From: Hysterangium stoloniferum
Taxonomy: Eukaryota; Basidiomycota; Agaricomycetes; Hysterangiales; Hysterangiaceae
Length of the DNA: 64,000 bases
NCBI GenBank assembly: GCA_015178975.1
Contig: WHVD01000020.1
Location: forward strand, 310,001 to 374,000
Direction: 5' to 3'
Below are positions 21,729-63,261 of this stretch, in pieces. Numbering within the stretch: the stretch's first letter is position 1; each line of letters begins with the position of its first letter. Both the position numbers and the translations under genes were made by a program. The notes under the pieces were generated by a model, which did not search any database, was not told the origin of the DNA, and worked only from the letters and a program-made list of their open reading frames with translations.

Positions 21729-22591
21729 TGTTTCCTGTATAGTGTGAGTTGAATGGCATAGCGCTGCACTATTTTCGACCTTTTAATGCGGGCGGATTGA
21801 CGTTTGATAGTGTCCGTGGGATGGAGCCAAGATCGATGAGCACAGCCACTATTGAACGTGACATAACGTCACAGATGGTTATAGGAAAATGCCGCGCAGG
21901 GTGTCACACTGCCGCACAAGTTGGATCGGACAAATGTAATTTGTACGAGTTCTTTAGTGATCATAGGTCTCACCCAATGTCACTGTGACAATCTCCCCTA
22001 TTGTTCACTAGCGCTTCTCCCCTTCTCTTCGTTTCCCATCTCACAGGATGCTTGCAGCATCTGTGATAGTTCTTTTTATTTCCCACCCACCACCCCTCTT
22101 TCATATTCGCTAACTCTTAGTTTCTTTGTACCTTAACTAGTCTCATGTAGTGGCCCGCGCCTGCTGCCATGGATGCCTGTCTATCATCTGTGGTCACAGC
22201 CGGCTCCCGCTTTAGACCACAACATGATGTTGTTCACCAGACCAGAGTGAGATAAAGAGCCACAACAAAAGAACATGACCAGTGGTTCAAATAACCCTCT
22301 AATGTTTCTTTTTTCAAATTAAGTAGATACTTCATAAATTTTATATTGTAAATTATCAAAATAAAATTATATTTGACATTTGATTATCAAAACATGAGAA
22401 CTGTTACATCTAGTGAGTGTACAGTTTTCTGGTGAAAAATACCTTGTAGACCACTTTAATTGGGAGATCCTTAGTTTAGTCCTTCCTTGAGTAATATTAA
22501 TGCTCAAATAAACTTACTAAAGTCTAAAATAACAAAATGTAACTTGAAAATGATGTTTATTCTAGGTTTACACCAAAAATTTGTAGTCAGT
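21729..22591. other. Upstream region of the PD-(D/E)XK-like gene
   Basis: It is probably the promoter and 5' flank of the minus-strand gene. Pyrimidine-rich tracts are at 22000-22100 and AT-rich sequence at 22310-22400. No further gene is supported. Confidence 0.4.
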
Positions 22592-22788
22592 TTGACTTGG
22601 AGAGGACCCAGTGATTTATTTTTAATGGGTCACTTTTGGGCCAGTCCTTTTGATTTGGAGAGGGCCCAGGTGATTTATTTAATTTAATTTTAATGGGTCA
22701 CTTTAGGGCCAGTCAGTTTGACTTGGAGAGAGCCTGGGTTTTTATTTATTTATTTTTTATTTTAATTTAATTCACTTTGGGAGCCTAG
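22592..22788 (+). repeat. Tandem ~70 bp repeats, left arm of inverted array
   Basis: Three units share GTCAGTTTGACTTGGAGAGG, then a TTTATTT tract and TGGGTCACTTT. The reverse-complement units lie at 24492-24819, on the other side of the solo LTR, so together they form a large inverted repeat. Confidence 0.8.
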
Positions 22789-24491
22789 TGTCAGGACCAG
22801 AAAACCCACCAGACTCCTGAACCCTATCCTACCCTCTATATTGTATAGTTACAAACTGGAGTACCTGCTGGAACCTGTATGTCAACCTGTATATGCACCC
22901 AACTCTCTATCCCCACCAGGTTACAGTTACCAGACAACCTGCTGGGACCCAGACCCTGCCCTATATGCACCCAACCTGCTGTATGGAACTCAAAGTACAG
23001 TTACAACTGTGCTGCCAGGACCCATCCATCACACCTGTCTATGCCTGACACTGTGTCTCACATACCAGTCATCAGACTCTGCCAGACCCCTGCACATCAA
23101 ACCTGCCTATATCTGACTCTGTCTCACACACTAGTCACTGGACTCTGCCCAGACAATCTGTACCTGAGCCCTGTTCCCATTATGGTCTAATGACCTGTCA
23201 TGTTTTGATTCCCACTTCCATTCTGTTCCATCCCTAACACCTGGTTTGGTGTTTACTCATCCCATTTCATGATTACCTGTTTTCTCTTTGATTATTACCA
23301 GATTTGGTATTGCATACATTCCAGTCTTTATAGTCTGGCTGAATGTTGTACATACATACAATCCAGTTATGTCAGGGCTCTCCTGATCTAATATATTTTA
23401 TTTTATTTTATTTTTATTTTACTTTTTGTTAAGTCGCACATCACACATAGTCACATGAGCCACGAACAACTCTGAAGAGTCATTTGCAGCGGTGCATCAT
23501 GCATGGTCACATCATGAACAACAAACAACTTGAAAGAGTCATTCACTCGCAGCTGTATGTCACACATAGTGACACTCATGGTCACATGCCACAAACAACT
23601 CAAAGAGTTGTTCACAGCCACACATCATATATAGTGACATGCACAGTCACAAGAGCTGTGAACAGCTCAAAAGACCATTCATGGCTATGCAGTGACAATC
23701 ACGTGATATACATGTGTCTAACCTAAACTTTATTTATATTTTCTTCTAAGGTTTCAAACTTTACTTAATTTCTTAATAATAGCTTGATTTTAGTATAAAT
23801 ACCCAAGCTGTACATACAGTATGTAGCTAGACCCTAGTTTCAATATCTTAGGATTTCCACTACATACAAAAGTGTGATCTTCTCAAGTCATTAGAACTTC
23901 TATCTCTCTATTCCCTTACCTTATCCTCTCTTCTGTTCTCTCTTTGTGTTTTGGTATCCTTGTTAGTGTTGCCCTAACAGGTTAAAAAATTGACTTAGTT
24001 TCTGACTTAGATTCCAACTAAGATTCTTCCTAGTCACTTAGCATACATCCCACTCTATCCTCACCTCTCATCTCTGAAGAACATCACTGTCATCTCATTG
24101 GAGCCCATAGGCCTTCCAACTCACCTCCCAACCAATTGCCCTCCATGGACTTCCTGACCTATCAACTGTTTACCACCTGACCTCTCAACTGTTTGACTGA
24201 CTTGACCTATTGACCATTCCCAAGACCCCTCAGGTTTACCGTATCGACTCTTCAACCTCTCAACTGCTTGACTATCGACTACTCACAGACCACTTGGGTT
24301 TCCTGTATCAACTGTTCGACAACTCAACCTATCGACAACCCCAGACTCCTTGGGTTTCCCATCCACCTGTTTGAAATTGGACACCATGATCTCACAAGGG
24401 TGCAGCCTATAAGCTGAAGCCAAATCCTTCCCAGAATATCTGTGGGTTTCTCTGGAAACCTTCCATAAGCCTGCACACCTCTTATGTAACA
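22789..24491 (+). mobile_element. Long solo gypsy-type LTR (1.7 kb)
   Basis: It begins TGTCAGGACCAG and ends TTATGTAACA. The flanks are CCTAG (22784-22788) and CCCAG (24492-24496), a target duplication with one mismatch. Both ends and middle blocks align with the 3' LTR of the gypsy element at 13467. It contains a minisatellite at 23443-23705 and an internal CTAACAGG boundary near 23975. No open reading frame of interest. Confidence 0.7.
23443..23705 (+). repeat. Minisatellite, about four units of 56-70 bp
   Basis: The degenerate units share ATAGTSACAT, GGTCACAT and AACAACT-AAGAGT-ATTCA. They lie within the solo LTR and recur at 55472-55735 in copy 2. Confidence 0.7.
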
Positions 24492-24819
24492 CCCAGGTGA
24501 TTTTAGTTGTATTTTTTATTTTATTTTTATTCACTTTGGGGCAGGCCAGGTTGACTTGGAGAGGAACCCTGGCCCTAAAGTGACCCATTAAATTAAATTA
24601 AATCAATCACTCCAAGTCAAACTGACTGGCCTTAAAGTGACTACATTAAATGAAATAAATGACCCCAGCCTGGTCTTCAAGTCCAAATGACTGGCCCTAA
24701 AGTAACCCATTAAATTAAACTATATAAATCACCCAGGTCCTCTCCAAGTCAGACTGGCCTGCCCTAAAGTGAATTTAAATTAAATTAAATAAATAAATCA
24801 CTCCCCCCAAGTCAAACTG
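24492..24819 (-). repeat. Tandem ~75 bp repeats, right arm of inverted array
   Basis: About four reverse-oriented units (CTCCAAGTCAAACTG, GGCCCTAAAGTGACCCATTA). The copia element at 24820 inserted into the last unit (AACTG duplicated). Confidence 0.8.
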
Positions 24820-25170
24820 TGTTGAGATAGACTCGAGCACCCAAGTCTACGTCAAGTCTATATGACAACGCTAAGCAGTATAGCCCAACTCTGTGTCCAG
24901 TTAACACAAACATACCAAGCCATTGCGTGCCTTGGACACGTATACCTCTATTGTAGTTACTTTACCGTCGCATATCCGAAATCTATTTAGCTGGCACAGT
25001 AGCAGCCTCATACCTCAGTTGAACCACTCTTACGTGTCGACTGAGGTACATTATTATTCCTATAGTTTTAGTTACAGTCAACTCACTAAAACATGTGGTA
25101 GCATACTTTGTTACAGGTAACAAATATAGTCGAACCACTCTTACATGTTGACTGAGCATACTTTGTTACA
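24820..25170 (+). mobile_element. 5' LTR of copia copy 1
   Basis: The end of the LTR contains an internal 55 bp direct repeat bounded by two GCATACTTTGTTACA copies. In copy 2 one of these units has been lost (LTR 296 bp). Confidence 0.92.
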
Positions 25171-25187
25171 GGTTATGGGCCCCGAAC
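25171..25187 (+). promoter_or_regulatory. Primer-binding site, half-tRNA type
   Basis: GGTTATGGGCCC follows the LTR without a gap. It is complementary to the anticodon region of initiator tRNA-Met rather than to the 3' end of a tRNA, as known for Drosophila copia, which is primed by a cleaved tRNA-Met half. Copy 2 has one transition in it. Confidence 0.75.
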
Positions 25188-25341
25188 AAAGCTGCTAATT
25201 AAAAACATAACCAAGAATTAACCACGAAAATCTGACTGACACTGAACCCCAAACCCCGAAACTGAAACCATCGACCAACCCAGAACCTCTGACAAGATCT
25301 GACCGAACCCAAACCCTGAACTAACTACTACTCGTACCAAA

Positions 25342-28300
25342 ATGTCCACACAACCTGCACTATTCATGCTACCGTCGGAAGACCATTTTGATGGAAGCAA
25401 CTGGCTCACCTGGCACAACACCATTTGGTCTGCCACAGACGCATGAGGTGTCCAAGGATACCTGGATGGCACCATACAGATCCCTTCCCCCATCAACTCC
25501 AATATTGTGCCCACGCCAACAAGCTACTGGGGATCCAAGACCCCCTCACCTGAGGAATGGGAACAACGCAATGTGTATGCAAAGGCAATGATCAACCTAA
25601 ACATAAAGAATCCCATTGGTCACAGTATTCAACTCACAGACACCGCACATGAAGCATGGTCCACACTAAAAAAAATCCACAGTATGGTGTCTGACATAGG
25701 TTTGTTAAATGCCGATAATGAACTTCGTGCAATCAAACATACGGATGGCGCGGATATCTTAAACCATTTTGCGCGACTGCGGGAAGGATGGGCAAAGGTT
25801 AACGCACAAGGGGGAAAAATGGATGACTCAACGTTTCGCATTATCGTAATTGCCTCAATGCCCAAGGAGTGGGACCTAGTCATCACGACACTTCTCCCAT
25901 TAAAAACATCACATGAAGTAATCACAAATCTCACCTTATACAACACAACACTCGCCCGACACAGAAAACCAACGCCACAATCATCACAAGCCCTCGCAAC
26001 AACCAGACCCTACCGATTGACTGATATATGCTCCAACCTGAACTGCAAGCACGTAGGGCACACAGTCGACAAGTGTTTCAAACCCAGGGGAGGAATGGAA
26101 GGCCAGTACCCAGAATGGTGGAGAAAAAAAGGGGTGGCGACCAGCAGAAACCAGACTTCACAACAGACACTGCCAATTAGCACACTTCCGAAACTGACAG
26201 CAAATATGGTGGTAGTGCCATCTACCCCCTTTACTTCTGGATCTGGGGAATTCTGCACACTTATGACACAGGCAGACCCGGAGATATTGACCATTGTTAC
26301 CTATGCTGATTCGGCAGCAAGTGACAACTTCTTTACCAACATAAATGACTTTGCATCAGATGAGCCATATACGGGGAAGAACAGGTCGATGGCAAATAGT
26401 GGTAGTACTTTCCCGATACTTGGAAAGGGAACAGTCAATAAATGATGCATGTATGATGGACACATTATCAACCTCCCTTTCAGAGACACACTCCACTGCC
26501 CAACTCTATCCCATAATCTCGTGCCCATCGGAAGGCTTGATAACAATGGTTGCTGTGCATTTTTTGGGGGAGGAGGGGTCACCTTTATCAACCCAACTGG
26601 CCGCCCATTTATGTATGGGAAGGGAGAGGGGACAATGTATCAAATCGAGATCTTTCCACCAACTGGCCCTCTCCCAAATACCACAATGCCCCCTGAGATG
26701 GTAACACACCTGACAACTGCGAATGACACACTTGCCAGTGCTCTCACCACAAAATCCCATGACCGGCCCACCAATATCGACACCTGGCACCGGCGCCTTG
26801 GTCATGTCAACTATGATACTGTCCAACGTATGTCCAAGAGTGATATCATTTGTGGGATGGAAATAACCACCCTAGCGACTCGGCCAGGAATGTGCAAAGG
26901 GTGTATCATGGGGAAACACACCTGTCACCCATTTTACATGAATGACGAGTGGGAGACAGCGATTGGGGAGTGCATATATATCGACCTGTGGGGGCCGTCA
27001 CGAGTGCAATCTACCGGTGGCAGAAGTTACATGATGCCCTGCATCGACGGGTACAGTAATCATCATGAAGTTTTCTTCTTGTCCACCAAGGAAGCTGAAG
27101 CGACATTGTCAGCTTTTAAAAATTACACGGCACTAACTGAGCGTCAGACAGGAATGAAAGTGTGCACCATACGTATGGATGAAGGCACTGAATTTATCAA
27201 CTCACTGTGGACTGCATACCTCAGTGAACAAGGTATTATCCATGAGTCTACCACTGCCTATTCTTCTTCATCCAATGGCATCGTTGAACAGTGTCACTGC
27301 ACCATTATCGAAAGGGTTCACATTTGCCTGTATGAGAACAATTTTCCACCATCATTATGGTGCGAAATCACAGCAGCAATTGCATACACGATGGACTTCA
27401 TTCCCACCTCTAGGCACCCTGACGCGACCCCTTTTGAGCTGTGGTATGAACAAAAACCTGACATCTCTCACTTACAACCACTCGGATGTACCGCCTATGT
27501 GAAGATCCCAGTCGAAGCAGGAGGTGGGCTAAGTAAACTGGATCCATGCTCCATTAAAGGGATTCATATAGAATATTTTGGACGTGATGCCTACTGAATT
27601 TATGACCCAGAAACCCGACACATCTTCCGCTCTCACGACGTCTTCTTCGAAAAAACCCGTAGCCATGGAATGCTAACTGATGTATTGAGCGAGTGGGAGG
27701 CGATTAACACTGGCCATGCCACACTCGACACATCTACAAACGAGAAGTCAGATGAGACTCACAGGGGACTAGCACCAGCACATGACCACGTACCCCCAAC
27801 CAATACTTCTCCATCTGCACCCAAACCAACTGCTATCGAACTCGCATCACACTGCTCATTGCGTGTTTCTGTACCAACAAAGGCACTTCAGGACTCGATA
27901 AATTCCGAAAAAAATATACGAGATGCTAAGGCCGCCAGAGAGGCATGGGCGGACGACAAGACACGTGTCACTGACAGTGACCATGCCAGAGCTTTTCATA
28001 CAGATACCAAAACAATCCCAGAACTGACAAATGTTTGGCTTCCCAACACATTCCACGAGGTGATCACACGTCCCGATATATGGGGGGGGGCAATAGGTAA
28101 AGAACTAGAGGTAATGAAGAAGCATGGGGTCTGGACAGTAGTGGATTGCCCCAAGGATGTCAGATTGATAAAAACACGGTGGACCTTCGCAAACAAGTAT
28201 GATGGCAACGGAGAACCTGCCGTGCAAAAAGCATGTCTCATTGCCAAAGGCTTTACGCAAATCCCTGGCATCGATTTTTTCGAAACATATGCTTCAGTTG

Positions 28301-29610
28301 TAAGGTACAAATCACTACGGATGAACTTAGCCATCGCAGCTGCAACCGATATGGAAGTGTGGCAGATCGATTACATCACAGCATATCTCAATTCCACCCC
28401 ACAAGCCACTACATACATCGAACTACCCGATGGAGAGAAGGAGGAAGGGAAGGTTGGATGGTTATAAAAGACACTATATGGAACAATGGATGGGGCAAAC
28501 AATTGGTGGGGGACCTTAGATAAGGAAATGAGTGAGTTAGGCTACTACCACTCAAAAGCTGACCCGTCAGTGCATTCTCGGCACTCAAATGGCAACACCA
28601 CTATCACAAGTACCTATACCGATGACACAACTGGGATATCATCCTCGAAGGAAGAGGCTGAGTGGGTGAAGGAAGAATTAGGTCAGACCTATGAGACGAA
28701 AGACCTGGGGGATGCCAACCTTGTCTTGGGGATATGTATCAACAGGGATAGGGAGTGTGGAACAATAAGAATATCACAGCGCACATACCTCGAATGTGTT
28801 CTTGAGCATTTCAGAATGATGGAGTCGAACCCCCGCCCAACACCATTACCACCAGGTATCACGCTCATGAAGGAACAAGCCCCACAAATGACCAAGGACC
28901 ATATCTTCATTTCAAATAAGCCGTATCGTGAGCTGCTTGGGTCCCTCATGTACACACAGATTGCTACATGGCCAGACCTTTCCTACCCCATAACTACACT
29001 CAGCAAATTCACCTTGAATCCCGGGAAAGCACACTGGAATGTACTAACTCACGTATTGCGCTATGTCAAGGGGACACTCGACTATAGAATCACTTATGGC
29101 AGACCAGACAAGAATCTCACCCCGGTGGGATACATCAATGCTGACTACACTGGGGACATTGACATGTGCCGATCCTGTTCTGGATATGTTTTCATCCAGG
29201 CAGGGGGTCCTACCGCTTGGGGTTCAAAGTATCAACCAACAGTCGTGTTATCCACGACAGAGTCAGAATACATGGCACTCACACGAGGTATGAAACAGGC
29301 ATTATGGATGTACATGGCTATGGACAAAGTCGGGTTCCTGCAACAAAAGCCAGCTGTCTTATACAATGATAATTCCAGGGCAGTTCTTTTGACCAAAAAT
29401 ACAAAACACAATATGCATGTTAAGCACATCAACATAAGATACCACTATATATGGGAATGCGTTGAAGAAGGCGACATAGAAGTATATCACATACCTTCTA
29501 ACGAAAACCTTGCCAATATGTTCACGAAACCGTTGGTTAAGGTGCTTTTCAACAAACACTGCATTGCATTACGACTTTGCGAGAGCACACCGAGCCAGGG
29601 GGGGTGTTGA
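25342..29610 (+). pseudogene. copia gag-pol, copy 1, four in-frame stops
   Basis: A single frame starts at ATG 25342 (MSTQPALFMLPSEDHF). Gag ends with a zinc knuckle of spacing C-x4-C-x4-H-x4-C (about 26031-26076). Protease has DSAAS (about 26310). Integrase has the HRRLGHV/CKGC module and catalytic IDLWGP, MDEGTEF and NGIVEQ. Reverse transcriptase has YTDD (about 28617) and RNase H has ADYTGD, SEYMAL and NDNS. Stops: TGA 25444, 26443 and 27595, and TAA 28465. All fit CGA or CAA codons hit by C-to-T, and frame is retained throughout. A single transcript could not make full protein without reversion or readthrough. Confidence 0.92.
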
Positions 29611-29955
29611 GATAGACTCAAGCGCCCAAGTCTATGTCAAGTCTATATGACAATGCTAAGCAGTATAGCCCAACTCTGTGTCCAGTTAACACAAACATAC
29701 CAAGCCGTTGCATGCCTTGGACACGTATACCTCTATTGTAGTTACTTTACCGTCGCATATCCGAAATCTATTTAGCTGGCACAGTAGCAGCCTCATACCT
29801 CAGTTGAACCACTCTTACGTGTCAACTGAGGTATGTTATTGTTCCTATAGTTTTAGTTACAGTCAACTCACTAAAACATGTGGTAGCATACTTTGTTACA
29901 GGTAACAAATATAGTCAAACCACTCTTACATGTTGACTGAGCATACTTTGTTACA
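29605..29955 (+). mobile_element. 3' LTR of copia copy 1
   Basis: It is preceded by a run of seven G (polypurine tract). Same length as the 5' LTR, with a few transitions between them, mostly at CG versus TG or CA. Confidence 0.92.
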
Positions 29956-30003
29956 AACTGGCCTGCCCTAAAGTGAATAAATATTAAATAAAATAAAATA
30001 AAT

Positions 30004-30284
30004 GATTGAAATTGTAATCATTCCAATTATGGGACCCAAAAGAGCCCCATATTGTTATTTATTGTCACTACCTCCCCAAGTTGGGATTGGGTAATTTGCA
30101 TGCCTGCTGCCTTCCTTGGATGTGGTAGCTGTTTCTCAGGCTCCCTCTCCAGAATTGAACCCTTATTCCCCATTACCCATTGAAAGCATGGTAGGCCTCT
30201 ATCCTACCATTTAAACTTGATAGGGCAGATATTTGAATGAAGCGTCACTGGCACAAGGCCATGCAATTCGAGAAGTTATTATTA
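30004..30284 (-). pseudogene. 18S rRNA gene fragment, CpG-depleted, copy 1
   Basis: Read on the minus strand this matches a 5'-domain segment of eukaryotic 18S rRNA. Landmarks are CTTCATTCAAATATCTGCCC, GGTAGGATAGAGGCCTACCA, GAATAAGGGTTCAATTC, GAGAGGGAGCCTGAGAAAC and GACAATAAATAACAATATGG. Nearly every CpG expected from the conserved 18S sequence is TG or CA here (for example AATGGGTAATGGGG, and GGCATGCAAA for a CGCG). Two CpGs survive near the F-box-proximal end (30243-30272). The fragment is far too short to be functional. It sits between the repeat array and an F-box spacer. Confidence 0.9.
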
Positions 30285-31052
30285 ATTATATAGTGGCATG
30301 TCGAAGGAAGAGCGAGTCAATTAATACTGGGACATTCAAAGGTGTCTTGCAATATGATTCCAGAGCGTGTAGCTTTCTGAGACATCTTGTAACATACAGC
30401 CTCGCATTGACAAATTGACTCTTTGACCGCGATTCGAAAAACTCCTTCCTGCGGTGCTGTCCAAAAAGAGGAAATACGTCAATACTTCTTCAAGAGTAAG
30501 AGTGTCGTTGACTGTCGTCAGTCCCTACTGACCACAGGCCATTGGATATTATCAACGACAACGATACTTCAGAAAAGGTGGATGCGGGGTTTGGCCGTCG
30601 CAAGTGAATGCATGGCCTGTATATGTATCAAACGTGAGGCCCGTATGAACTTGTCCCCGAACAACCGTAAATAACGCAGCTGATGTGTAGTTTTGACAAC
30701 ATATACGATGTCCAGCCGTGATCCGTCGCGGAAATTTCCAAGCGATCATACCACAATGAGATATTGCAAACAAGATATAGCGTACTCGGACCAAAAAGGA
30801 CGCAACTTTGGAAGGTTTGGTACTTGGTATTCAACTTGGAATGCACACAGCATTTTGGGACTTCCTATCCAGATAATTAGGTGCTGGGGATAATGATGTG
30901 GGAAGACCTAACTTAGCTAGTCGGAGATGTGATGACGGCAGAGACTCAGTGCATCAACGACCCAATACTAATGACATATCTATGGATATTTAGATATTTA
31001 ATTAGCTGTACTTAAATGTCGACATGTGCATATATTATTTCCTAACCTGTGG
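30285..31052. repeat. Partial F-box unit spacer after the 18S relic
   Basis: The spacer begins within TATATAGTGGCATGTCGAAGG and continues through the usual landmarks to CTAACCTG near 31046. There is no F-box gene in front of it, so the upstream unit was replaced by the inserted block. Confidence 0.7.
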
Positions 31053-31057
31053 ACAAT

Positions 31058-31333
31058 TGTAACAAATACACTAAATACATCTTAGTAAGCTAGCGTAACT
31101 GAAAGTATGAAAGTAATAACGTACCTCAGTCGACACGAAAGAGAGGTTAGACTGAGGTATGGGGCTGCAACTATGATACCTAAATAGGTTTCGGCTAGTA
31201 TGAGAGTGAAATAATGGTACGTGTTTTAAGGTACAGCATGACTTGGTATGGTCGTATAAGCTGGACGTGGAATAGTGCTTAGTATTGTCGTGTAAGCTTG
31301 ACGTAGAGTAGTGCGCTACAGCCTATTTCAACA
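31058..31333 (-). mobile_element. Solo copia LTR, reverse orientation, copy 1
   Basis: It begins TGTAACAAAT and ends CTATTTCAACA, with target duplications ACAAT at 31053-31057 and 31334-31338. The central block (ACGTACCTCAGTCGACACG) is the diverged reverse complement of the copia LTR at 24820. It is shared with copy 2 (62922-63205). Confidence 0.85.
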
Positions 31334-31403
31334 ACAATTGTCGGCAATACTTCCTTTCACAAAGCAAAGGGGAAGTTAGTCCAGGGTGGCCTCTTGATCA
31401 TAG

Positions 31404-50943: not shown

Positions 50944-51814
50944 GCGAGGGCGGACGGAAGCAAAATTCCTTAAATTTGGCGAACTAAGTGTGTCCGTCGG
51001 CTCCATACCTTGAAACGACTCTTATCTCTTCGAAAATTACTCGGCACTGTTCGCAACGGAGAACAGACAGGGACATCGCATGATATGTGAGAATCCAAAT
51101 AAACGGCGGCTGGAGAGTTGTAGAAGGAAATGCCTGTTGAATACGCGTTTTGTCGAAACAGAACTGACACTAACATGGAAATACGGCGGTTTTTAACAGT
51201 AACCGAAGATGGCCCTAAGGGTAAAGCTGTGAACCTAATGACGAAGGAAACTCTTGTCTAGTGCAGTCTGGGCGAGAGGTGTATAGCTCGATGGAGATGG
51301 AGAAGTGCCGCGTGGAAGCCGAATAGCATATTCACTTGAACACACTTCAATGATGCAGACGTACTCAGAATCACTTGTGCACACAATCGCACTCGGTACT
51401 ATCCACAGTATCAAGGTACGCGTCGTACGACTTTTGTGTAACGACTCCCTTTCGGGTTGAGAACGTGTCTTGAACCCACACGCACTAACAATAGGAAGGG
51501 TACAAAGACTTATTTTCAACAATATCTAGAATAGGCGTCAAATACAATCTAGTACTCCTGTGAGTTCAACAGGGTACCAACCAAGCATGACACTCGAGAA
51601 TATGTAAAGCATCAACAGATCGGGATTATGAGTAATCAGCCGGGGATGAAAGTCGTCTGATCGATGATAAGCTTGGATACAATTTGAAATAGAAGGAACG
51701 ACCGTAGTGAAAGATGTCGTGAAATAAATGTGGAGTAGATCAACCAAAGCGAACAGGAAAGCCGATGGGGGTTGCCCAGGGGAGTCGTAGGGTCGTATAA
51801 AGGACGCCGATTCG

Positions 51815-52909
51815 AACGAGCACAGGCGCCCCCCACTATGACATTTCCCAAAAAAGGAATTCACCACAAACCCAAACAACCCATACCAAACAACACGTCC
51901 ACAAACACCACCTGAACCAAACAAACAACACGTCTACAAACACTACCTTCAACGATGTTCAGAAATTGTGCTAAACCCTGGTGCATGAAGAAGGTGGCTG
52001 GGGATAGTAAACACAAGGCAACGAGGAGAAATGGGTGTGGAGGAAGTGGAATGGGCCAAAGCAGCTGCAGGACAAGAAGACTGGAACTCTTATGATGCTG
52101 CCGTACGTGTGTTGATTCTGTCTGTGGCCTGTGCTGATGCCTGATTGGGTTTGGTCTGGTTTGCGGGATGTAGGGCCGATTATGCGCTCGTGCAGGACAA
52201 GTCATTCAAGCAATGGGTTAAGAAGTATGCTGCGGATGAGTCGTTGTTCTTCGCCGAGTGCGTAACTTTTTCTCTCCCCCGGCTCTCATAGTTGTTTGAC
52301 GTCCCTCCTTCGTCTAGTTTCTCCAAAGCCTTCGGCAAGCTTCTCGAACTTGGCGTTCCCTCCTTACAGTGGGTTTCCCCAGAACCCTGGGAATTGAAGA
52401 CTGTCGAGGAACAGTCTAAATGATGAAGATGCCTCAACCGGAAGTTTCGCCGCCCACAATTATCATACCTCATAATTCTAAGAATCTATAAATGCGTTTA
52501 GATAGATGTGGTCCATCGAACAGCTATACCTTTCCAATACCAGTAGAGATGTTGCGATTATATACTGTCATCTGATGGTGTTATGATAACTATATAATGT
52601 AGGACTTTGCGCAAGAGATGTCTTGTAAGTGCAGGGAGGACAATTGTCTTGGGTATTTAGGGATGATTATATACGGATAATCTATGAGTGGACGAGTGGC
52701 TCTATGGTAAACTGGGGTGGACACAGGGGATGACAGACGACAACATAATAAGAAGCGAGAGAGCGAACATACACAAGAAAGTTCGTGAGTGCAGAGGATC
52801 TTATCGATTATCCTATCATATGTGTAATCATTACCATTCTGAGGGTCATATCGTATTTGTAATCATTACCATTTTGGGAATGTCATAGTGGGGGGCGCCA
52901 GTGGTACTT
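51815..52909. mobile_element. 1.1 kb TIR transposon carrying host gene exons (Pack-type)
   Basis: Terminal inverted repeats share GGCGCCCCCCACTATGACAT (51825-51845 and 52879-52899, reversed), extending imperfectly to about 40 bp. The 8 bp duplications CCGATTCG are at 51807-51814 and 52910-52917. Copy 1 has the empty site with one CCGATTCG (21105-21112). Subterminal direct repeats occur on the left (51886-51912 and 51921-51947) and right (two GTAATCATTACCATT at 52823 and 52859). There is no transposase. The cargo is the end of a cytochrome c peroxidase gene. An 8 bp duplication fits hAT-like elements, but the superfamily is unproven. Confidence 0.85.
52018..52423 (+). pseudogene. Captured 3' exons of a cytochrome c peroxidase gene
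   Basis: Three exon pieces with both introns retained: about 52018-52102 ([12 protein letters not shown], then GTLMMLP), intron 52103-52173 (GTACGT...TAG), 52174-52257 (ADYALVQDKSFK, KYAADESLFFA), intron 52258-52317 (GTGCGT...TAG), 52318-52423 (FSKAFGKLLELGVP, ending KTVEEQSK, stop). This is the C-terminal roughly 90 residues of a mitochondrial heme peroxidase of the yeast CCP1 type. The catalytic heme region is absent. Retained introns show capture from genomic DNA, not from mRNA. Splice phases are consistent, so the donor gene was intact. Confidence 0.88.
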
Positions 52910-52981
52910 CCGATTCGGGGGATTGGAAGCCGGTATGAGACATCAAGGAGGCGAATGGAGTGATGAACGGGCTCACAATTG

Positions 52982-53533
52982 TCATAACTCATTACACATG
53001 GCCTTTATATTGGTCACTACCTCCCGGAATCGCTGTTCTCCGTCTGGGGCCAGTATATCGACATCCCACCACGCGGCGGGTGCTCTGTCGTTAACCCGTT
53101 TGGTATTCCGCTCAATAGCTTCAGGCGTAATGGTTCCAGCCGCCGAGTCGTAGGTGTAGAGACAAAGTTGGGTTCCCAAGGCACTGACGCCGTACAATGT
53201 CGCGATAACCGCTTGATCGGCGAGAGCTTCAAACCTCTCGCGCATCTGTTGGTCTGCTGCAGAGCGGCCAGAGATCGTCTTCAGGTGGCCAGAAGGTTTG
53301 ATCTCGATGAAGAAAACAGGGTGCTTGTGGCGCTGGACAATGAAGATCGTTGTGAAATCAATCGATTGGGGATATGTAGGGCGCTTGTACTGAGGAACAA
53401 TCATGAAATGCTCTGGACCTGGGAATAATTCCAAGAGGAGACCGTTGAATGGGCCGCAGTATTCAGTCTCATCAACTTCGCCAAGGGGAGTGATCGTGTC
53501 GAACTGTTCAACGATGTGCGACGGCCATGGCAT
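52982..53533 (-). CDS. Putative PD-(D/E)XK superfamily protein, copy 2
   Basis: The encoded protein is the same as that of 21177-21728 (183 aa; D59, E77-I-K79, QMRERF). The TIR transposon inserted 65 bp after the stop codon and left the frame untouched. Its downstream sequence therefore differs from copy 1. Confidence 0.6.
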   Translation of the reverse strand: MPWPSHIVEQFDTITPLGEVDETEYCGPFNGLLLELFPGPEHFMIVPQYKRPTYPQSIDFTTIFIVQRHKHPVFFIEIKPSGHLKTISGRSAADQQMRERFEALADQAVIATLYGVSALGTQLCLYTYDSAAGTITPEAIERNTKRVNDRAPAAWWDVDILAPDGEQRFREVVTNIKAMCNEL

Positions 53534-54396
53534 TGTTTCCTGTATAGTGTGAGTTGAATGGCATAGCGCTGCACTATTTTCGACCTTTTAATGCGGGCGG
53601 ATTGACGTTTGATAGTGTCCGTGGGATGGAGCCAAGATCGATGAGCACAGCCACTATTGAACGTGACATAACGTCACAGATGGTTATAGGAAAATGCCGC
53701 GCAGGGTGTCACACTGCCGCACAAGTTGGATCGGACAAATGTAATTTGTACGAGTTCTTTAGTGATCATAGGTCTCACCCAATGTCACTGTGACAATCTC
53801 CCCTATTGTTCACTAGCGCTTCTCCCCTTCTCTTCGTTTCCCATCTCACAGGATGCTTGCAGCATCTGTGATAGTTCTTTTTATTTCCCACCCACCACCC
53901 CTCTTTCATATTCGCTAACTCTTAGTTTCTTTGTACCTTAACTAGTCTCATGTAGTGGCCCGCGCCTGCTGCCATGGATGCCTGTCTATCATCTGTGGTC
54001 ACAGCCGGCTCCCGCTTTAGACCACAACATGATGTTGTTCACCAGACCAGAGTGAGATAAAGAGCCACAACAAAAGAACATGACCAGTGGTTCAAATAAC
54101 CCTCTAATGTTTCTTTTTTCAAATTAAGTAGATACTTCATAAATTTTATACTGTAAATTATCAAAATAAAATTATATTTGACATTTGATTATCAAAACAT
54201 GAGAACTGTTACATCTAGTGAGTGTACAGTTTTCTGGTGAAAAATATCTTGTAGACCACTTTAATTGGCAGATCCTTAGTTTAGTCCTTCCTTGAGTAAT
54301 ATTAATGCTCAAATAAACTTACTAAAGTCTAAAATAACAAAATGTAACTTGAAAATGATGTTTATTCTAGGTTTACACCAAAAATTTGTAGTCAGT

Positions 54397-54593
54397 TTGA
54401 CTTGGAGAGGACCCAGTGATTTATTTTTAATGGGTCACTTTTGGGCCAGTCCTTTTGATTTGGAGAGGGCCCAGGTGATTTATTTAATTTAATTTTAATG
54501 GGTCACTTTAGGGCCAGTCAGTTTGACTTGGAGAGAGCCTGGGTTTTTATTTATTTATTTTTTATTTTAATTTAATTCACTTTGGGAGCCTAG
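54397..54593 (+). repeat. Tandem ~70 bp repeats, left arm, copy 2
   Basis: Counterpart of 22592-22788 with few differences. Confidence 0.78.
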
Positions 54594-54634
54594 TGTCAGG
54601 ACCAGAAAACCCACCAGACTCCTGGACCCTATCC

Positions 54635-54853
54635 TGTTGGATATGGTTGGTTTGACAGCCTAGACTCAGCTTTAGAGCAGTGCGAATGTGTGACTGTCTC
54701 TCACAGTTTCTGTGTATATGGAATGTTAATGGCCATATAGAGTTGACTTCACTACTGAGTACCTAAAGGGTTGGTAGCTCAGTGGTAGAGCATCCAGTCT
54801 AGATTACAGATGGTCCCAGGTTCAATTCCTGGCCAGTCCAATATTTTCCAATA
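54635..54853 (+). mobile_element. 219 bp LTR-like element containing a tRNA-like sequence
   Basis: It begins TGTTGGATATGG and ends TTTTCCAATA. Target duplications TATCC are at 54630-54634 and 54854-54858, and copy 1 has the empty site at 22825-22829. The 5' end resembles the short LTRs at 1298 and 31404. The 3' third is a 73 nt tRNA-like sequence. Without an internal region it looks like a solo LTR of a miniature LTR element, or a SINE with an unusual 5 bp duplication and no poly(A) tail. Confidence 0.8.
54768..54840 (+). tRNA. tRNA-like sequence, probably a tRNA pseudogene
   Basis: Exactly 73 nt. The acceptor GGGTTGG pairs with CCAGTCC (two wobbles), followed by discriminator A. D arm GCTC/GAGC and T arm CCAGG/CCTGG with loop TTCAATT are perfect. 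A-box (TAGCTCAGTGGTAGAGC) and B-box (GGTTCAATTCC) promoter elements are good. The anticodon stem is imperfect (TCCAGT against ACAGA, needing a bulge and a mismatch); the best 7 nt loop CTAGATT would give anticodon AGA, which lacks the long variable arm expected of Ser. Pol III transcription is possible, decoding is doubtful. Confidence 0.6.
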
Positions 54854-56524
54854 TATCCTACCCTCTATATTGTATAGTTACAAACTGGAGTACCTGCTGG
54901 AACCTGTATGTCAACCTGTATATGCACCCAACTCTCTATCCCCACCAGGTTACAGTTACCAGACAACCTGCTGGGACTTAGACCCTGCCCTATATGCACC
55001 CAACCTGCTGTATGGAACTCAAAGTACAGTTACAACTGTGCTGCCAGGACCCATCCATCACACCTGTCTATGCCTGACACTGTGTCTCACATACCAGTCA
55101 TCAGACTCTGCCAGACCCCTGCACATCAAACCTGCCTATATCTGACTCTGTCTCACACACTAGTCACTGGACTCTGCCCAGACAATCTGTACCTGAGCCC
55201 TGTTCCCATTATGGTCTAATGACCTGTCATGTTTTGATTCCCACTTCCATTCTGCTCCATCCCTAACACCTGGTTTGGTGTTTACTCATCCCATTTCATG
55301 ATTACCTGTTTTCTCTTTGATTATTACCAGATTTGGTATTGCATACATTCCAGTCTTTATAGTCTGGCTGAATGTTGTACATACATACAATCCAGTTATG
55401 TCAGGGCTCTCCTGATCTAATATATTTTATTTTATTTTATTTTTATTTTACTTTTTGTTAAGTCGCACATCACACATAGTCACATGAGCCACGAACAACT
55501 CTGAAGAGTCATTTGCAGTGGTGCATCATGCATGGTCACATCATGAACAACAAACAACTTGAAAGAGTCATTCACTCGCAGCTGTGTGTCACACATAGTG
55601 ACACTCATGGTCACATGCCACAAACAACTCAAAGAGTTGTTCACAGCCACACATCATATATAGTGACATGCACAGTCACAAGAGCTGTGAACAGCTCAAA
55701 AGACCATTCATGGCTATGCAGTGACAATCACGTGATATACATACATGTGTCTAACCTAAACTTTATTTATATTTTCTTCTAAGGTTTCAAACTTTACTTA
55801 ATTTCTTAATAATAGCTTGATTTTAGTATAAATACCCAAGCTGTACATACAGTATGTAGCTAGACCCTAGTTTCAATATCTTAGGATTTCCACTACATAC
55901 AAAAGTGTGATCTTCTCAAGTCATTAGAACTTCTATCTCTCTATTCCCTTACCTTATCCTCTCTTCTGTTCTCTCTTTGTGTTTTGGTATCCTTGTTAGT
56001 GTTGCCCTAACAGGTTAAAAAATTGACTTAGTTTCTGACTTAGATTCCAACTAAGATTCTTCCTAGTCACTTAGCATACATCCCACTCTATCCTCACCTC
56101 TCATCTCTGAAGAACATCACTGTCATCTCATTGGAGCCCATAGGCCTTTCAACTCACCTCCCAACCAATTGCCCTCCATGGACTTCCTGATCTATCAACT
56201 GTTTACCACCTGACCTCTCAACTGTTTGACTGACTTGACCTATTGACCATTCCCAAGACCCCTCAGGTTTACCGTATCGACTCTTCAACCTCTCAACTGC
56301 TTGACTATCGACTACCCACAGACCACTTGGGTTTCCTGTATCAACTGTTCGACAACTCAACCTATCGACAACCCCAGACTCCTTGGGTTTCCCATCCACC
56401 TGTTTGAAATTGGACACCATGATCTCACAAGGGTGCAGCCTATAAGCTGAAGCCAAATCCTTCCCAGAATATCTGTGGGTTTCTCTGGAAACCTTCCATA
56501 AGCCTGCACACCTCTTATGTAACA

Positions 56525-56852
56525 CCCAGGTGATTTCAGTTGTATTTTTTATTTTATTTTTATTCACTTTGGGGCAGGCCAGGTTGACTTGGAGAGGAAC
56601 CCTGGCCCTAAAGTGACCCATTAAATTAAATTAAATCAATCACTCCAAGTCAAACTGACTGGCCTTAAAGTGACTACATTAAATGAAATAAATGACCCCA
56701 GCCTGGTCTTCAAGTCCAACTGACTGGCCCTAAAGTAACCCATTAAATTAAACTAAATAAATCACCCAGGTCCTCTCCAAGTCAGACTGGCCTGCCCTAA
56801 AGTGAATTTAAATTAAATTAAATAAATAAATCACTCCCCCCAAGTCAAACTG
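56525..56852 (-). repeat. Tandem ~75 bp repeats, right arm, copy 2
   Basis: Counterpart of 24492-24819. The copia element is at the same AACTG site. Confidence 0.78.
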
Positions 56853-59800
56853 TGTTGAGATAGACTCAAGCACCCAAGTCTATGTCAAGTCTATATGACA
56901 ACGCTAAGCAGTATAGCCCAACTCTGTGTCCAGTTAACACAAACATACCAAGCCATTGTGTGCCTTGGACACGTATACCTCTATTGTAGTTACTTTACCG
57001 TCGCATATCTGAAATCTATTTAGCTGGCACAGTAGCAGCCTCATACCTCAGTCGAACCACTCTTACGTGTCAACTGAGGTACATTATTATTCCTATAGTT
57101 TTAGTTACAGTCAACTCACTAAAACATGTGGTAGCATACTTTGTTACAGGTCATGGGCCCCGAACAAAGCTGCTAATTAAAAACATAACCAAGAATTAAC
57201 CACGAAAATCTGACTGACACTGAACCCCAAACCCCGAAACTGAAACCATCGACCAACCCAGAACCCCTGACAAGATCTGACCGAACCCAAACCCTGAACT
57301 AACTACTACTCGTACCAAAATGTCCACGCAACCTGCACTATTCATGCTACCGTCGGAAGACCGTTTCGATGGAAGCAACTGGCTCACCTGGCACAACACC
57401 ATTTGGTCTGCCACAGGCACATGAGGTGTCCAAGGATACCTGGATGGCACCATACAGATCCCTTCCCCCATCAACTCCAATATCGTGCCCACACCAACAA
57501 GCTACTGGGGATCCAAGACCCCCTCACCTGAGGAATGGGAACAATGCAATGCATATGCAAAGGCAATGATCGACCTAAATGTAAAGAATCCCATTGGTCA
57601 CAGTATTCAACTCACAGACACCGCACATGAAGCATGGTCCACACTAAAAAAAATCCACAGTATGGCGTCTGACATAGGTTTGTTAAATGCCGATAATGAA
57701 CTTCGTGCAATCAAACATATGGATGGCGTGGATATCTTAAACCATTTTGTGCGACTGCAGGAAGGATGGGCAAAGGTTAACGCACAAGGGGGGAAAATGG
57801 ATGACTCGACGTTTCGCATTATCGTAATTGCCTCAATGCCCAAGGAGTGGGACCTAGTCATCACAACACTTTTCCCATTAAAAACATCACATGAAGTAAT
57901 TGCAAATCTCACCTTATACAACACAACACTCGCCCGACACAGAAAACCAATGCCACAATCATCACAAGCCCTCGCAACAACCAGACCCTACCGATCGACT
58001 GATATCTGCTCCAACCCAAACTGCAAGCATGTAGGGCACACAGTTGACAAGTGTTTCAAACCCAGGGGAGGAATGGAAGGCCAGTACCCAGAATGGTGGA
58101 GAAAAAAAGGGGTGGCGACCAGCAGAAACCAGACTTCACAACAGACACTGCCAATTAGCACACTCCCGAAACTGACAGCAAATGTGGCGGTAGTGCCATC
58201 TACCCCCTTTACTTCTGGATCTGGGGAATTCTGCACACTTATGACACAGGCAGACCCGGCGATATTGACCATTGTTACCTATGCTGATTCGGCAGCAAGT
58301 GACAACTTCTTTACCAACATAAACGACTTTGCATCGGACGAGCCATATACGGGGAAGAACGGGTTGATGGCAAATAGTGGTAGTACTTTCCCAATACTTG
58401 GAAAGGGAACAGTCAATAAATGATGCATGTATGATGGACACATTATCAACCTCCCTTTCAGAGACACACTCCACTGCCCAACTCTATCCCATAATCTCGT
58501 GTCCATCGGAAGGCTTGATAACAACGGTTGCTGTGCATTTTTTAGGGGAGGAGGGGTCACCTTTATCAACCCAACTGGCCACCCATTTATGTATGGGAAG
58601 GGAGAGGGGACAATGTATCGAATCGAGATCTTTCCACCAACCAGCCCTCTCCCAAATACCACAATGCCCCCTGAGATGGTAACACACCTGACAACTGCGA
58701 ATGACACACTTGCAAGTGCTCTCACCACAAAATCCCATGACCGGCCCACCGATATCGACACCTGGCACTGGCGCCTTGGTCATGTCAACTACAATACTGT
58801 CCAACGTATGTCCAAGAGTGATATCATTTGTGGGATGGAAATAACCACCCTAGCGACTCGGCCAGGAATGTGCGAAGGGTGGATCATGGGGAAACACACC
58901 TGTCACCCATTTTACATGAATGACGAGTGGGAGACAGCGATTGGGGAGTGCATATATATCAACCTGTGGGGGCCATCACGAGTGCAATCTACCGGTGGCA
59001 GAAGTTACATGATGCCCTGCGGAGATGGGTACAGTAATCATCATGAAGTTTGCTTCTTGTCCACCAAGGAAGCTGAAGCGACATTGTCAGCTTTTAAAAA
59101 TTACACAACACTAACTGAGCGTCAGACAGGAATGAAAGTGTGCACCATACATACGGATGAAGGCACTGAATTTATCAACTCACTGTGGACTGCATACCTC
59201 AGTGAACAAGGTATTATCCATGAGTCTACCACTGCCTATTCTTCTTCGTCCAATGGTGTCGTCGAACAGTGTCACTGCACCATTATCGAAAGGGTTCACA
59301 TTTGCCTGTATGAGAACAATCTTCCACCATCATTATGGTGCGAAATCGCAGTGGCAATTGCATACACGATGGACTTCATTCCCACCTCTAGGCACCCTGA
59401 CAACCCCTTTTGAGCTGTGGTATGGACGAAAACCTGACATCTCTCACTTACGACCACTCGGATGTACCACCTATGTGAAGATCCTAGTCGAAGCAGGAGG
59501 TGGGCTAAGTAAACTGGATCCATGCTCCATTAAAGGGATTCATATAGGATATTTTGGACGTGATGCCTACTGAATTTATGACCCAGAAACCCGACACATC
59601 TTCCGCTCTCACGACGTCTTCTTCAAAGAAACCCATAGCCATGGAATGCTAACTGATGTATCGAGTGAGGGGGAGGCGATTAACACTGGCCATGCCACAC
59701 TCGACACATCTACAAACGAGAAGTCAGATGAGACTCACAGGGGACTAGCACCAGCACATGACCACGTACCCCCAACCAATACTTCTCCATCTGCACCCAA

Positions 59801-61819
59801 ACCAACCACTATCGAACTCGCACCACACTGCTCATTGCGTGTTTCTGTACCAACAAAGGCGCTTCAGGACTCGATAAATTCCGAAAAAAATATACGAGAT
59901 GCTAAGGCCGCCAGAGAGGCATGGGCAGATGACAAGACATGTGTCACTGACAGTGACCATGCCAGAGCTTTTCATACAGATACCAAAACGATCCCAGAAC
60001 CGACAAATGTTTGGCTTCCCAACACATACCACAAGGTGATGACACGTCCCGATATATGGGGGGGGCAATAGGTAAAGAACTAGAGGTAATGAAGAAGCAT
60101 GGGGTCTGGACAGTAGTGGATTGCCCCAAGGATGTCAGATTGATAAAAACATGGTGGACCTTCACAAACAAGTATGATGGCAACGGAGAACTTGCCATGC
60201 AAAAAGCATGTCTCATTGCCAAAGGCTTTACGCAAATCCCTGGCATCGATTTTTTCGAAACATATGCTTCAGTTGTAAGGTACAAATCACTACAGATGAA
60301 CTTAGCCATCACAGCTGCAACCGATATGGAAGCGTGGCAGATCGATTACATCACAGCATATCTCAATTCCACCCCACAAGCCACTACATACATCAAACTA
60401 CCCGATGGAGAGAAGGAGGAAGGGAAGGTTGGATGGTTATAAAAGACACTATATGGAACAATGGATGGGGCAAACAATTGGTGGGGGACCTTAGATAAGG
60501 AAATGAGTGAGTTAGGCTACTACCGCTCAAAAGCTGACCCATCAGTGCATTCTCGGCACTCAAATGGCAACACCACTATCACAAGTACCTATTCCGATGA
60601 CACAACTGGGATATCATCCTCAAAGGAAAAGGCTGAGTGGGTGAAGGAAGAATTAGGTCAGACCTATGAGACGAAAGACCTGGGGGATGCCAACCTTGTC
60701 TTGGGGATATGTATCAACAGGGATAGGGAGTGTGGAACAATAAGAATATCACAGTGCACATACCTCGAATGTGTTCTTGAGCATTTTGGAATGATGGAGT
60801 CGAACCCCCACCCAACACCATTACCACCAGGTATCACGCTCATGAAGGAACAAGCCCCACAAACGACCGAGGACCATATCTTCATTTCAAATAAGCCGTA
60901 TCGTGAGCTGCTTGGGTCCCTCATGTACACACAGATTGCTACACAGCCGGACCTTTCCTACCCCATAACTACACTCAGCAAATTCACCTTGAATCCCAGG
61001 AAAGCACACTGGAATGTACTAACTCACGTATTGCGCTATGTCAAGGGGACACTCGACTATGGAATCACTTATGGCAGACCAGACAAGAATCTCACCCCAG
61101 TGGGATACATCAATGCTGACTATGCTGGGGACATTGACACGCACTGATCCTGTTCTGGATATGTTTTCATCCAGGCAGGGGGTCCTACCGCTTGGGGTTC
61201 AAAGTATCAACCAACAGTCGTGTTATCCATGACAGAGTCAGAATACATGGCACTCACACGAGGTATGAAACAGGCATTAGAGATGTACGTGGCTATAGAC
61301 AAAGTCGGGTTCCCGCAACAAAAGCCAGCTGTCTTGTACAATGATAATTCTGGGGCAGTTCTTTTGACCAAAAATACAAAACACAATATGCATGTTAAGC
61401 ACATCAACAAACGATACCACTATATATGGGAATGTGTTGAAGAAGGTGACATAGAAGTATATCACATACCTTCTAATGAAAACCTTGCTGATATGTTCAC
61501 GAAACCGTTGGTTAAGGTGCTTTTCAACAAACACTGCATTGCATTACAACTTTGCGAGAGCACACCGAGCCAGGGGGAGTGTTGAGATAGACTCGAGCGC
61601 CCAAGTCTACGTCAAGTCTATATGACAATGCTAAGCAGTATAGCCCAACTCTGTGTCCAGTTAACACAAACATACCAAGCTGTTGCATGCCTTGGACACA
61701 TATACCTCTATTGTAGTTACTTTACCATCGCATATCCAAAATCTATTTAGCTGGCACAGTAGCAGCCTCATACCTCAGTTGAACCACTCTTACGTGTTGA
61801 CTGAGCATACTTTGTTACA
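56853..61819 (+). mobile_element. Ty1/copia retrotransposon, copy 2
   Basis: Same insertion site as copy 1 (AACTG at 56848-56852 and 61820-61824). The LTRs are shortened by internal deletions to 296 bp (56853-57148) and 240 bp (61580-61819), each explained by recombination between short repeats inside the LTR. The primer-binding site has one T-to-C difference. Confidence 0.94.
57320..61585 (+). pseudogene. copia gag-pol, copy 2, stops and frameshifts
   Basis: It carries the four stops of copy 1 and adds a 2 bp deletion near 59400, one G lost in the G-run at 60057-60065, and TGA at 61145-61147 for an Arg codon. The first integrase catalytic Asp is Asn (INLWGP, about 58958). The reverse transcriptase box is YSDD. 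Differences from copy 1 are mostly transitions at CG, TG and CA. Confidence 0.92.
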
Positions 61820-61868
61820 AACTGGCCTGCCCTAAAGTGAATAAATATTAAATAAAATAAAATAAATG

Positions 61869-62148
61869 ATTTAAATTGTAATCATTCCAATTATGGGACC
61901 CAAAAGAGCCCCATATTGTTATTTATTGTCACTACCTCCCCAAGTTGGGATTGGGTAATTTGCATGCCTGCTGCCTTCCTTGGATGTGGTAGCTGTTTCT
62001 CAGGCTCCCTCTCCAGAATTGAACCCTTATTCCCCATTACCCATTGAAAGCATGGTAGGCCTCTATCCTACCATCTAAACTCAATAGGGCAGATATTTGA
62101 ATGAAGCGTCACTGGCACAAGGCCATGCAATTCGAGAAGTTATTATTA
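61869..62148 (-). pseudogene. 18S rRNA gene fragment, CpG-depleted, copy 2
   Basis: Same fragment as 30004-30284, with a handful of differences. At its edge GATTTAAATTG is kept, as in true 18S, where copy 1 has GATTGAAATTG. Confidence 0.9.
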
Positions 62149-62916
62149 ATTATATAGTGGCATGTCGAAGGAAGAGCGAGTCAATTAATACTGGGACATT
62201 CAAAGGTGTCTTGCAATATGATTCCAGAGCGTGTAGCTTTCTGAGACATCTTGTAACATACAGCCTCGCGTTGACAAGTTGACTCTTTGACCGCGATTCG
62301 AAAAACTCCTTCCTGCGGTGCTGTCCAAAAAGAGGAAATACGTCAATACTTCTTCAAGAGTAAGAGTGTCGTTGACTGTCGTCAATCCCTACTGACCACA
62401 GGCCATTGGATATTATCAACGACAACGATACTTCAGAAAAGGTGGATGCGGGGTTCGGCCGTCGCAAGTGAATGCATGGCCTGTATATGTATCAAACGTG
62501 AGGCCCGTATGAACTTGTCCCCGAACAACCGTAAATAACGCAGCTGATGTGTAGTTTTGACAACATATACGATGTCCAGCCGTGATCCGTCGCGGAAATT
62601 TCCAAGCGATCATACCACAATGAGATATTGCAAACAAGATATAGCGTACTCGGACCAAAAAGGACGCAACTTTGGAAGGTTTGGTACTTGGTATTCAACT
62701 TGGAATGCACACAGCATTTTGGGACTTCCTATCCAGATAATTAGGTGCTGGGGATAATGATGTGGGAAGACCTAACTTAGCTAGTCGGAGATGTGATGAC
62801 GGCAGAGACTCAGTGCATCAACGACCCAATACTAATGACATATCTATGGATATTTAGATATTTAATTAGCTGTACTTAAATGTCGACATGTGCATCTATT
62901 ATTTCCTAACCTGTGG
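62149..62916. repeat. Partial F-box unit spacer, copy 2
   Basis: Counterpart of 30285-31052, nearly the same sequence. No gene is seen. Confidence 0.7.
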
Positions 62917-62921
62917 ACAAT

Positions 62922-63205
62922 TGTAACAAATACACTAGATACATCTTAGTAAGCTAGCGTAACTGAAAGTATGAAAGTAATAACGTACCTCAGTCGACAC
63001 GAAAGAGAGGTTAGACTGAGGTATGGGGCTGCAACTATGATACCTAAATAGGTTTCGGCTAGTATGAGAGTGAAATAATGGTACGTGTTTTAAGGTACGG
63101 CATGACTTGGTATGGTCGTATAAGCTGGACGTGGAATAGTGCGGTACTACTTAGTATTGTCGTGTAAGCTTGACGTAGAGTAGTGCGCTAGAGCCTATTT
63201 CAACA
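62922..63205 (-). mobile_element. Solo copia LTR, reverse orientation, copy 2
   Basis: Counterpart of 31058-31333, with target duplications ACAAT at 62917-62921 and 63206-63210. It has about 8 bp more in the centre (GTACTACTTAG). Confidence 0.85.
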
Positions 63206-63261
63206 ACAATTGTCGGCAATACTTCCTTTCACAAAGCAAAGGGGAAGTTAGTCCAGGGTGG

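Follow-up and report, generated by a model that had tools for sequence, protein, structure and literature searches.

The question raised by this locus is whether a short segment bounded by inverted repeats has taken up part of a host gene and, if so, what kind of mobile element it is, where the gene piece came from and how recently the element moved. The segment lies in the window, i.e., the whole 64,000-nt stretch of Hysterangium stoloniferum DNA that was analyzed, and an earlier note had described it as a Pack-type TIR transposon that captured the 3′ exons of a cytochrome c peroxidase gene. Our analysis bore out that description and further specified the superfamily as Mutator (MULE). The element is very probably a Pack-MULE in which a peroxidase gene piece was captured once and was then moved, most likely by a transposase acting in trans.

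Structure and insertion site of the element

The complete element occupies 51815-52909 on the plus strand (1,095 bp) and has imperfect inverted ends, as established from end-to-end matches in other copies, a target-site duplication and an empty site. An 8-bp sequence, CCGATTCG, abuts both ends (51807-51814 and 52910-52917), and a sister duplicate of the surrounding region carries it once, cleanly, at 21105-21112, which shows that this second site was not occupied by the element. Flanks of the window copy were 99.64% identical to the sister duplicate on the left (834 bp) and 99.77% identical on the right (1,726 bp), so the local duplication is young; the window copy inserted after it. As a separate observation, positions 1-63261 of the window contain many related repeats of about 77-99% identity. 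Positions 20279-31389 recur in direct order at 50981-63261, with an offset of 30.7 kb before the element and 31.8 kb after it, and other parts are repeated in inverted order.

The inverted repeats start 10 bp outward of the 20-mer GGCGCCCCCCACTATGACAT (AACGAGCACA / AAGTACCACT, with the shared core next). Comparison with the reverse complement of the 3′ end placed the 5′ terminal inverted repeat at 51815-51853; element positions 7-39 were 94% identical to the reverse complement of 1058-1089, and identity was lower in the outermost bases. When up to two mismatches were allowed, the 20-mer was found at 54 places in the 111-Mb genome and its reversed control at none, and a longer pattern from the 3′ end was found at 27 places as opposed to none for its control. 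The ends mapped from other copies coincided with 51815 and 52909. Only 3 of 20,000 random pairs of window flanks matched over at least 8 bp. A chance origin of the repeats was rejected on the 20-mer and flank-pair counts, and the 8-bp duplication likewise stood as a non-random feature of the mapped ends. The ends, the duplication and the empty site that the earlier note had combined into a complete, non-autonomous TIR element were thus all confirmed.

The captured peroxidase gene piece and its donor

The element opens with the head of its parent MULE (51815-52019; element 1-205), whose limit is set by matches in C79, C334, C549, C221, C290 and C15 that end at element position 204-205, where divergence begins. 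Inspection of the reading frame showed that the head retains the start of a transposase gene (an ATG, 21 codons and two bases; 51955-52019); these first 21 codons alone are left, and the element has no transposase gene of its own. The captured 3′ part of a host cytochrome c peroxidase gene follows (52020-52761; element 206-947, 742 bp) and aligned to positions 62020-62783 of another contig, C551, with 696 of 764 columns (91%) identical. It begins within the exon encoding NEEKW and consists of exon piece 1 (52020-52102; reading frame and GT..AG boundary), intron 1 (GTACGT...TAG; 52103-52173), exon 2 (52174-52257), intron 2 (GTGCGT...TAG; 52258-52317), exon 3 with the stop codon at 52421-52423 (52318-52423) and 338 bp of 3′ flank (52424-52761). 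From intron 1 to exon 3 these parts were placed by sequence and donor alignment, and the 3′ flank by donor alignment. Junction comparison identified a 3-nt filler, AGC, at 52762-52764 and, together with family matches, the tail of the parent at 52765-52909 (element 951-1095), which includes the 3′ terminal inverted repeat. The three exon pieces and two introns in consistent splice phases, as first described, were upheld on reading the sequence; the captured piece had been put at 52018-52423, where the peroxidase exons and introns indeed lie, and its true extent of 52020-52761 reaches beyond the stop codon into the 3′ flank.

At the donor locus, the joined C-terminal exon pieces matched yeast cytochrome c peroxidase chains (best E 5.6e-34), and more peroxidase-like open pieces were present upstream. 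With the upstream half of the donor query, C551 was the sole place in the genome at the search sensitivity used, and the 8,001 bp fetched around it contained no inverted repeat of the family. The cargo is a host-gene fragment with its donor outside the element. Because both this donor and family members with other cargo exist, the outcome that would have spoken against capture, namely a peroxidase piece in every member and no donor gene, was not what we found.

The 5′ junction is blunt (a slash marks the junction): the parent reads ...CACAAGGC/TTGTG, the donor ...TTTTG/AACGAGG and the element ...CACAAGGC/AACGAGG. At the 3′ junction, the donor reads ...GCGAGAG/CAGAGG, the parent ...GTTT/GAACATAC and the element ...GCGAGAG-AGC-GAACATAC, and the AGCGA formed there repeats an AGCGA slightly upstream. 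The window included, all seven copies displayed at the 5′ side and all eight displayed at the 3′ side had identical junctions; the display omits C307 and C294, both of which align end to end, and C27, which is identical to the window copy throughout. Since the displayed copies have both junctions in common, the simplest reading is one capture followed by movement, and the retention of introns and 3′ flank places capture at the DNA level. We propose that, in a single event, the 742-bp genomic peroxidase piece took the place of the transposase gene body in a parent MULE, possibly through template switching or through end joining within that parent, with which the blunt 5′ junction and the 3-nt filler would be consistent.

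A search with the cargo returned 12 places, comprising the donor and at least 11 element copies: C113 (the window copy), C27, C441, C518 (twice), C462, C307, C294, C484, C533 and C46. Copy counts are lower bounds, the whole-element search having returned 75 rows from the best 40 of 65 candidate places; a second family search covered the best 40 of 41. By flank comparison, these copies fall into six sites. The C462, C307, C294 and C484 copies share one (flanks 98.8-100% alike) and C533 and C46 another (99.3-99.7%); C113, C27 and C441 each represent a separate site, and the two C518 copies abut. Surroundings of the C441 and C518 copies have a 374-bp repeat in common, away from the junctions. In an alignment of 10 of the 11 copies, which omits the retrotransposon-split C46 copy, pairwise differences ranged from 0 to 38 over 704-1,095 positions. 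The C27 copy differed from the window copy at none of 1,095 bp; it has a 9-bp duplication, and its 1,500-bp flanks match neither the window nor the flanks of any other copy. Together with the empty sister site, this supports the recent movement that had been proposed. The chimera would have reached its six known sites by mobilization, most likely with transposase supplied in trans by related MULEs, with target duplications of 9 bp, or of 8 bp in the window copy.

Two of the copies showed further rearrangement. On C46 (L020 3061-7377), a copia-type LTR retrotransposon with an open frame of 1,439 residues is nested in the peroxidase copy; the C533 copy, which has the same flanks, is without it. 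On C518 (L024 1797-3679), the two copies adjoin in inverted orientation, the full copy beginning where the other breaks at element position 294, and the remainder of the broken copy is absent on the far side.

MULE relatives and a second capture

Both the head (element 1-205) and the tail (951-1095) matched the ends of a 4,203-bp element on C79, which is bounded by a flush 9-bp duplication, GATTTTTGT. C334 matched element 1-204 and 951-1034, C549 the head only (1-205) and C535 the tail only (951-1017). All four hold degraded MULE-related transposase sequence. Transposase pieces of C79 and C334 aligned at 42-67%, and those of C549 at 76-92%, to ORFs on C66, C431, C78 and C309; the C431, C78 and C309 ORFs scored above the cut-off for PF10551 (MULE), C431 in a second scan as well, and the same family also scored in 3 of 14 control genomes. 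The C334 piece itself reached E 0.0092 and 16.8 bits, under the cut-off of 27.6. No match to PF10551 was found for the C79 pieces and none to any Pfam family for the two pieces of C66, and no hAT domain was detected among the pieces scanned. Within the element's own family, then, these comparisons weakly suggest a MULE affiliation. The transposase sequences also contain D...D and CWWH motifs and a CxC...CxxH stretch, which we take to be typical of MULEs.

The family searches turned up members with other cargo and members with transposase sequence, both of which the earlier note had proposed to look for; no intact autonomous transposase copy was identified among the family copies inspected. A 725-bp repeat interrupts the transposase gene of C79 and is absent from C535, and the transposase matches of C334, C535 and C549 contain stop codons, some of them perhaps in introns. 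This repeat of about 725 bp (L021 about 4014-4738; L027 2220-2942) interrupts both the C79 MULE and the Pack element on C221, and a query holding it gave 3150 first-look candidate places in the genome, the best 40 of which were scored.

Target-site duplications were compared across 18 elements in 19 rows (L024 was entered with two left ends), all of them copies with both ends inside a fetched stretch. Flush 9-bp duplications were found in eight (L002, L003, L021, L025, L029, L031, L032 and L033), and in L005-L008, which represent a single insertion in four copies, the 9-bp duplication is offset by 2 bp. The 8-bp duplication of the window copy is thus one base below the family's usual 9 bp (12 of 18 elements). 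In five elements a convincing duplication was absent: L024 with either left end, L026, L035, L028 (5 bp) and L020 (4 bp). The excerpt of a published account gives 8-11 bp for MULE target duplications and states that MULE inverted repeats are commonly hundreds of bp long (PMC6446971). The duplications of this family, 8 bp in the window and mostly 9 bp elsewhere, fall inside that range.

Other cargo was found in the elements on C221, C496 and C290 and in a rearranged element on C13 (L027 1825-4255, L045, L046 and L026) in a search that scored the best 40 of 216 candidate places. In the C496 element, the parent head is followed by 542 bp derived from a GH79 glycosidase gene and then by a TMEM14 gene region of about 680 bp, after which comes the parent tail; the first and third joints each have a 1-nt gap, and the two gene pieces overlap by 3 nt. 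The donors are C112 for GH79 and C410 for TMEM14, one stretch of the C410 donor being missing from the copy. The GH79 assignment is based on matches of the captured piece to PDB beta-glucuronidase (E 1.8e-4 to 5e-4) and on a PF16862 match just downstream of that piece in the C112 donor (E 6.1e-13); the captured GH79 pieces gave no Pfam match. The TMEM14 assignment is based on PF03647 (E 4.1e-10) within the captured stretch of the C410 donor. No family inverted repeat was present in the donor stretches fetched for C112 and C410 (3,480 and 3,501 bp). The GH79-TMEM14 element breaks off the parent head and tail at other positions than the peroxidase element does, so this capture was an independent event. 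Pieces of a Tc1/mariner-type transposase (HTH, DDE_3) were also noted on C13 (L026 1755-2646), within the rearranged copy of the GH79-TMEM14 Pack element.

A C8/C35-type subfamily of about 1.2 kb has only its ends in common with the peroxidase element (about element 1-114 and the 58 bp of 1038-1095), the interior being different. Its members (L025, L028, L031-L033, L036 and L037) are numerous, and L028, L032 and L036 have an extra 490-500 bp or so at the same internal point. We considered this interior as a third capture and did not count it: it gave 34 rows at 24 scored places, most of them on family-end stretches. Matches to the interior at C223:683325, C223:531726 and C539:281537 have no listed family end, so a donor may lie there, and a peptide from it matched no Pfam family. 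The family head stands alone on C15 (L050), which showed no match to the three donors.

Alternative explanations and comparison with known systems

The same element could have arisen by tandem insertion, two elements flanking the gene having moved as a unit and later lost their inner ends. This route has been proposed for plant Pack-TYPE elements (PMC8903248, from its excerpt), and two copies do abut on C518. We consider it rather unlikely, given that no family end lies in the 8,001 bp at C551, that head and tail meet the gene piece within 0-3 nt and leave no inner-end remnants, and that the GH79-TMEM14 element, in which sequences from two contigs meet with 1-3 nt at every joint, would require several rounds. 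Membership in hAT or another TIR superfamily that makes 8-bp duplications would recall the histone H3 transduplications of Dothideomycetes and would fit the window duplication of exactly 8 bp. It is nevertheless highly improbable in view of the 9-bp duplications of 12 of the 18 elements (eight flush and four, all copies of a single insertion, with a 2-bp offset) and of relatives with the same ends that carry MULE-related sequence and, among the pieces scanned, no hAT domain. A retrocopy, or an ordinary segmental duplication, that came to lie between repeats by accident is an explanation of negligible probability for the peroxidase piece: sequence identity alone would agree with it, whereas the piece still has its introns and 3′ flank, the same head and tail junctions recur at different sites, and target duplications lie outside the ends.

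A functional role of the cargo as a chimeric or regulatory gene, e.g., through transcripts acting on the host peroxidase gene, would be in keeping with its placement, in sense orientation, after the transposase start that is retained, and is very unlikely on two counts. The frame that starts at 51955 enters the peroxidase piece in the wrong reading frame and closes after 46 residues. In addition, the window copy differs from the donor at 17 of 275 exon, 11 of 129 intron and 22 of 338 3′-flank positions, and across ten copies divergence from the donor was 6.2-8.4% in exons, 8.5-10.9% in introns and 6.1-7.7% in the 3′ flank; these counts are small, and the region borders used for them are 1-2 bases off the feature coordinates. 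Exon divergence near that of introns and 3′ flank has the appearance of neutral decay. Most probably the cargo is carried along as a passenger and has no peroxidase function.

A Pack-MULE with a captured and then mobilized gene piece, the reading we prefer, has its classic counterparts in plants, where MULEs with captured genes are well known and Pack-MULEs keep introns and hold several genes per element. Like those of rice and maize, the present element is non-autonomous, encloses host gene sequence between Mutator ends and belongs to a family with duplications within 8-11 bp; unlike them, it has a fungal host, short inverted repeats of about 33-39 bp and the retained start of its parent's transposase gene. 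Among fungi, a hAT case in Pyrenophora tritici-repentis is called the first fungal transduplication in the excerpt of PMC3538342, which also describes a Tc1/mariner case, and for a hAT element of Pseudocercospora fijiensis, the intronless histone H3 cargo was attributed to capture of a transcript or retrocopy (PMC6710886, excerpt). In all of these, a TIR element of a fungus has multiplied a host gene or a fragment of one; the superfamilies (hAT, Tc1/mariner) differ from that found here, and the peroxidase element, unlike the P. fijiensis pieces, keeps its introns. With such transduplications on record (PMC3538342, PMC6710886), the earlier remark that gene capture by TIR elements is little described in fungi holds for MULEs and does not hold for TIR elements generally.

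The nearest fungal hint of a Pack-MULE may be that of Rhizophagus irregularis, in which, according to the excerpted text, high-copy genes lie near MULEs, MULE-driven expansion was proposed and plant Pack-MULEs were compared (PMC8647823). A fungal Pack-MULE with a defined donor was not found among the matches listed in the open-access literature, and the excerpt of a Tremella paper (PMC13066641) contained neither "captur" nor "MULE". We lean toward regarding the present case as a fungal, probably basidiomycete, MULE family with at least two independent captures, three intron-bearing genes, one fusion and very recent movement, for which we found no earlier description. It would place a Pack-MULE family in a kingdom little explored for such elements.

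In plants, cut-and-paste transposons that capture genes contribute to exon shuffling; the mechanism of capture is still debated. Donors, a parent-like element, junctions and multi-copy products share one 111 Mb genome here, so models of capture can be compared directly. For animal Pack-TIRs, an excerpted study explained multi-copy members by transposition after template switching and reported microhomology (median 2 bp) at one or more breakpoints in 67.6% (PMC8277862). The hosts differ, and in both systems a fragment was captured within a TIR element; compared with the animal cases, the peroxidase element lacks microhomology (one blunt junction, one 3-nt filler), and the GH79-TMEM14 joint has 3 nt. 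Helitrons, which also capture genes, are rolling-circle elements without inverted repeats or target duplications. Those described in the excerpted account from Pleurotus ostreatus (PMC4289320) resemble the present family in being basidiomycete mobile elements that carry gene fragments.
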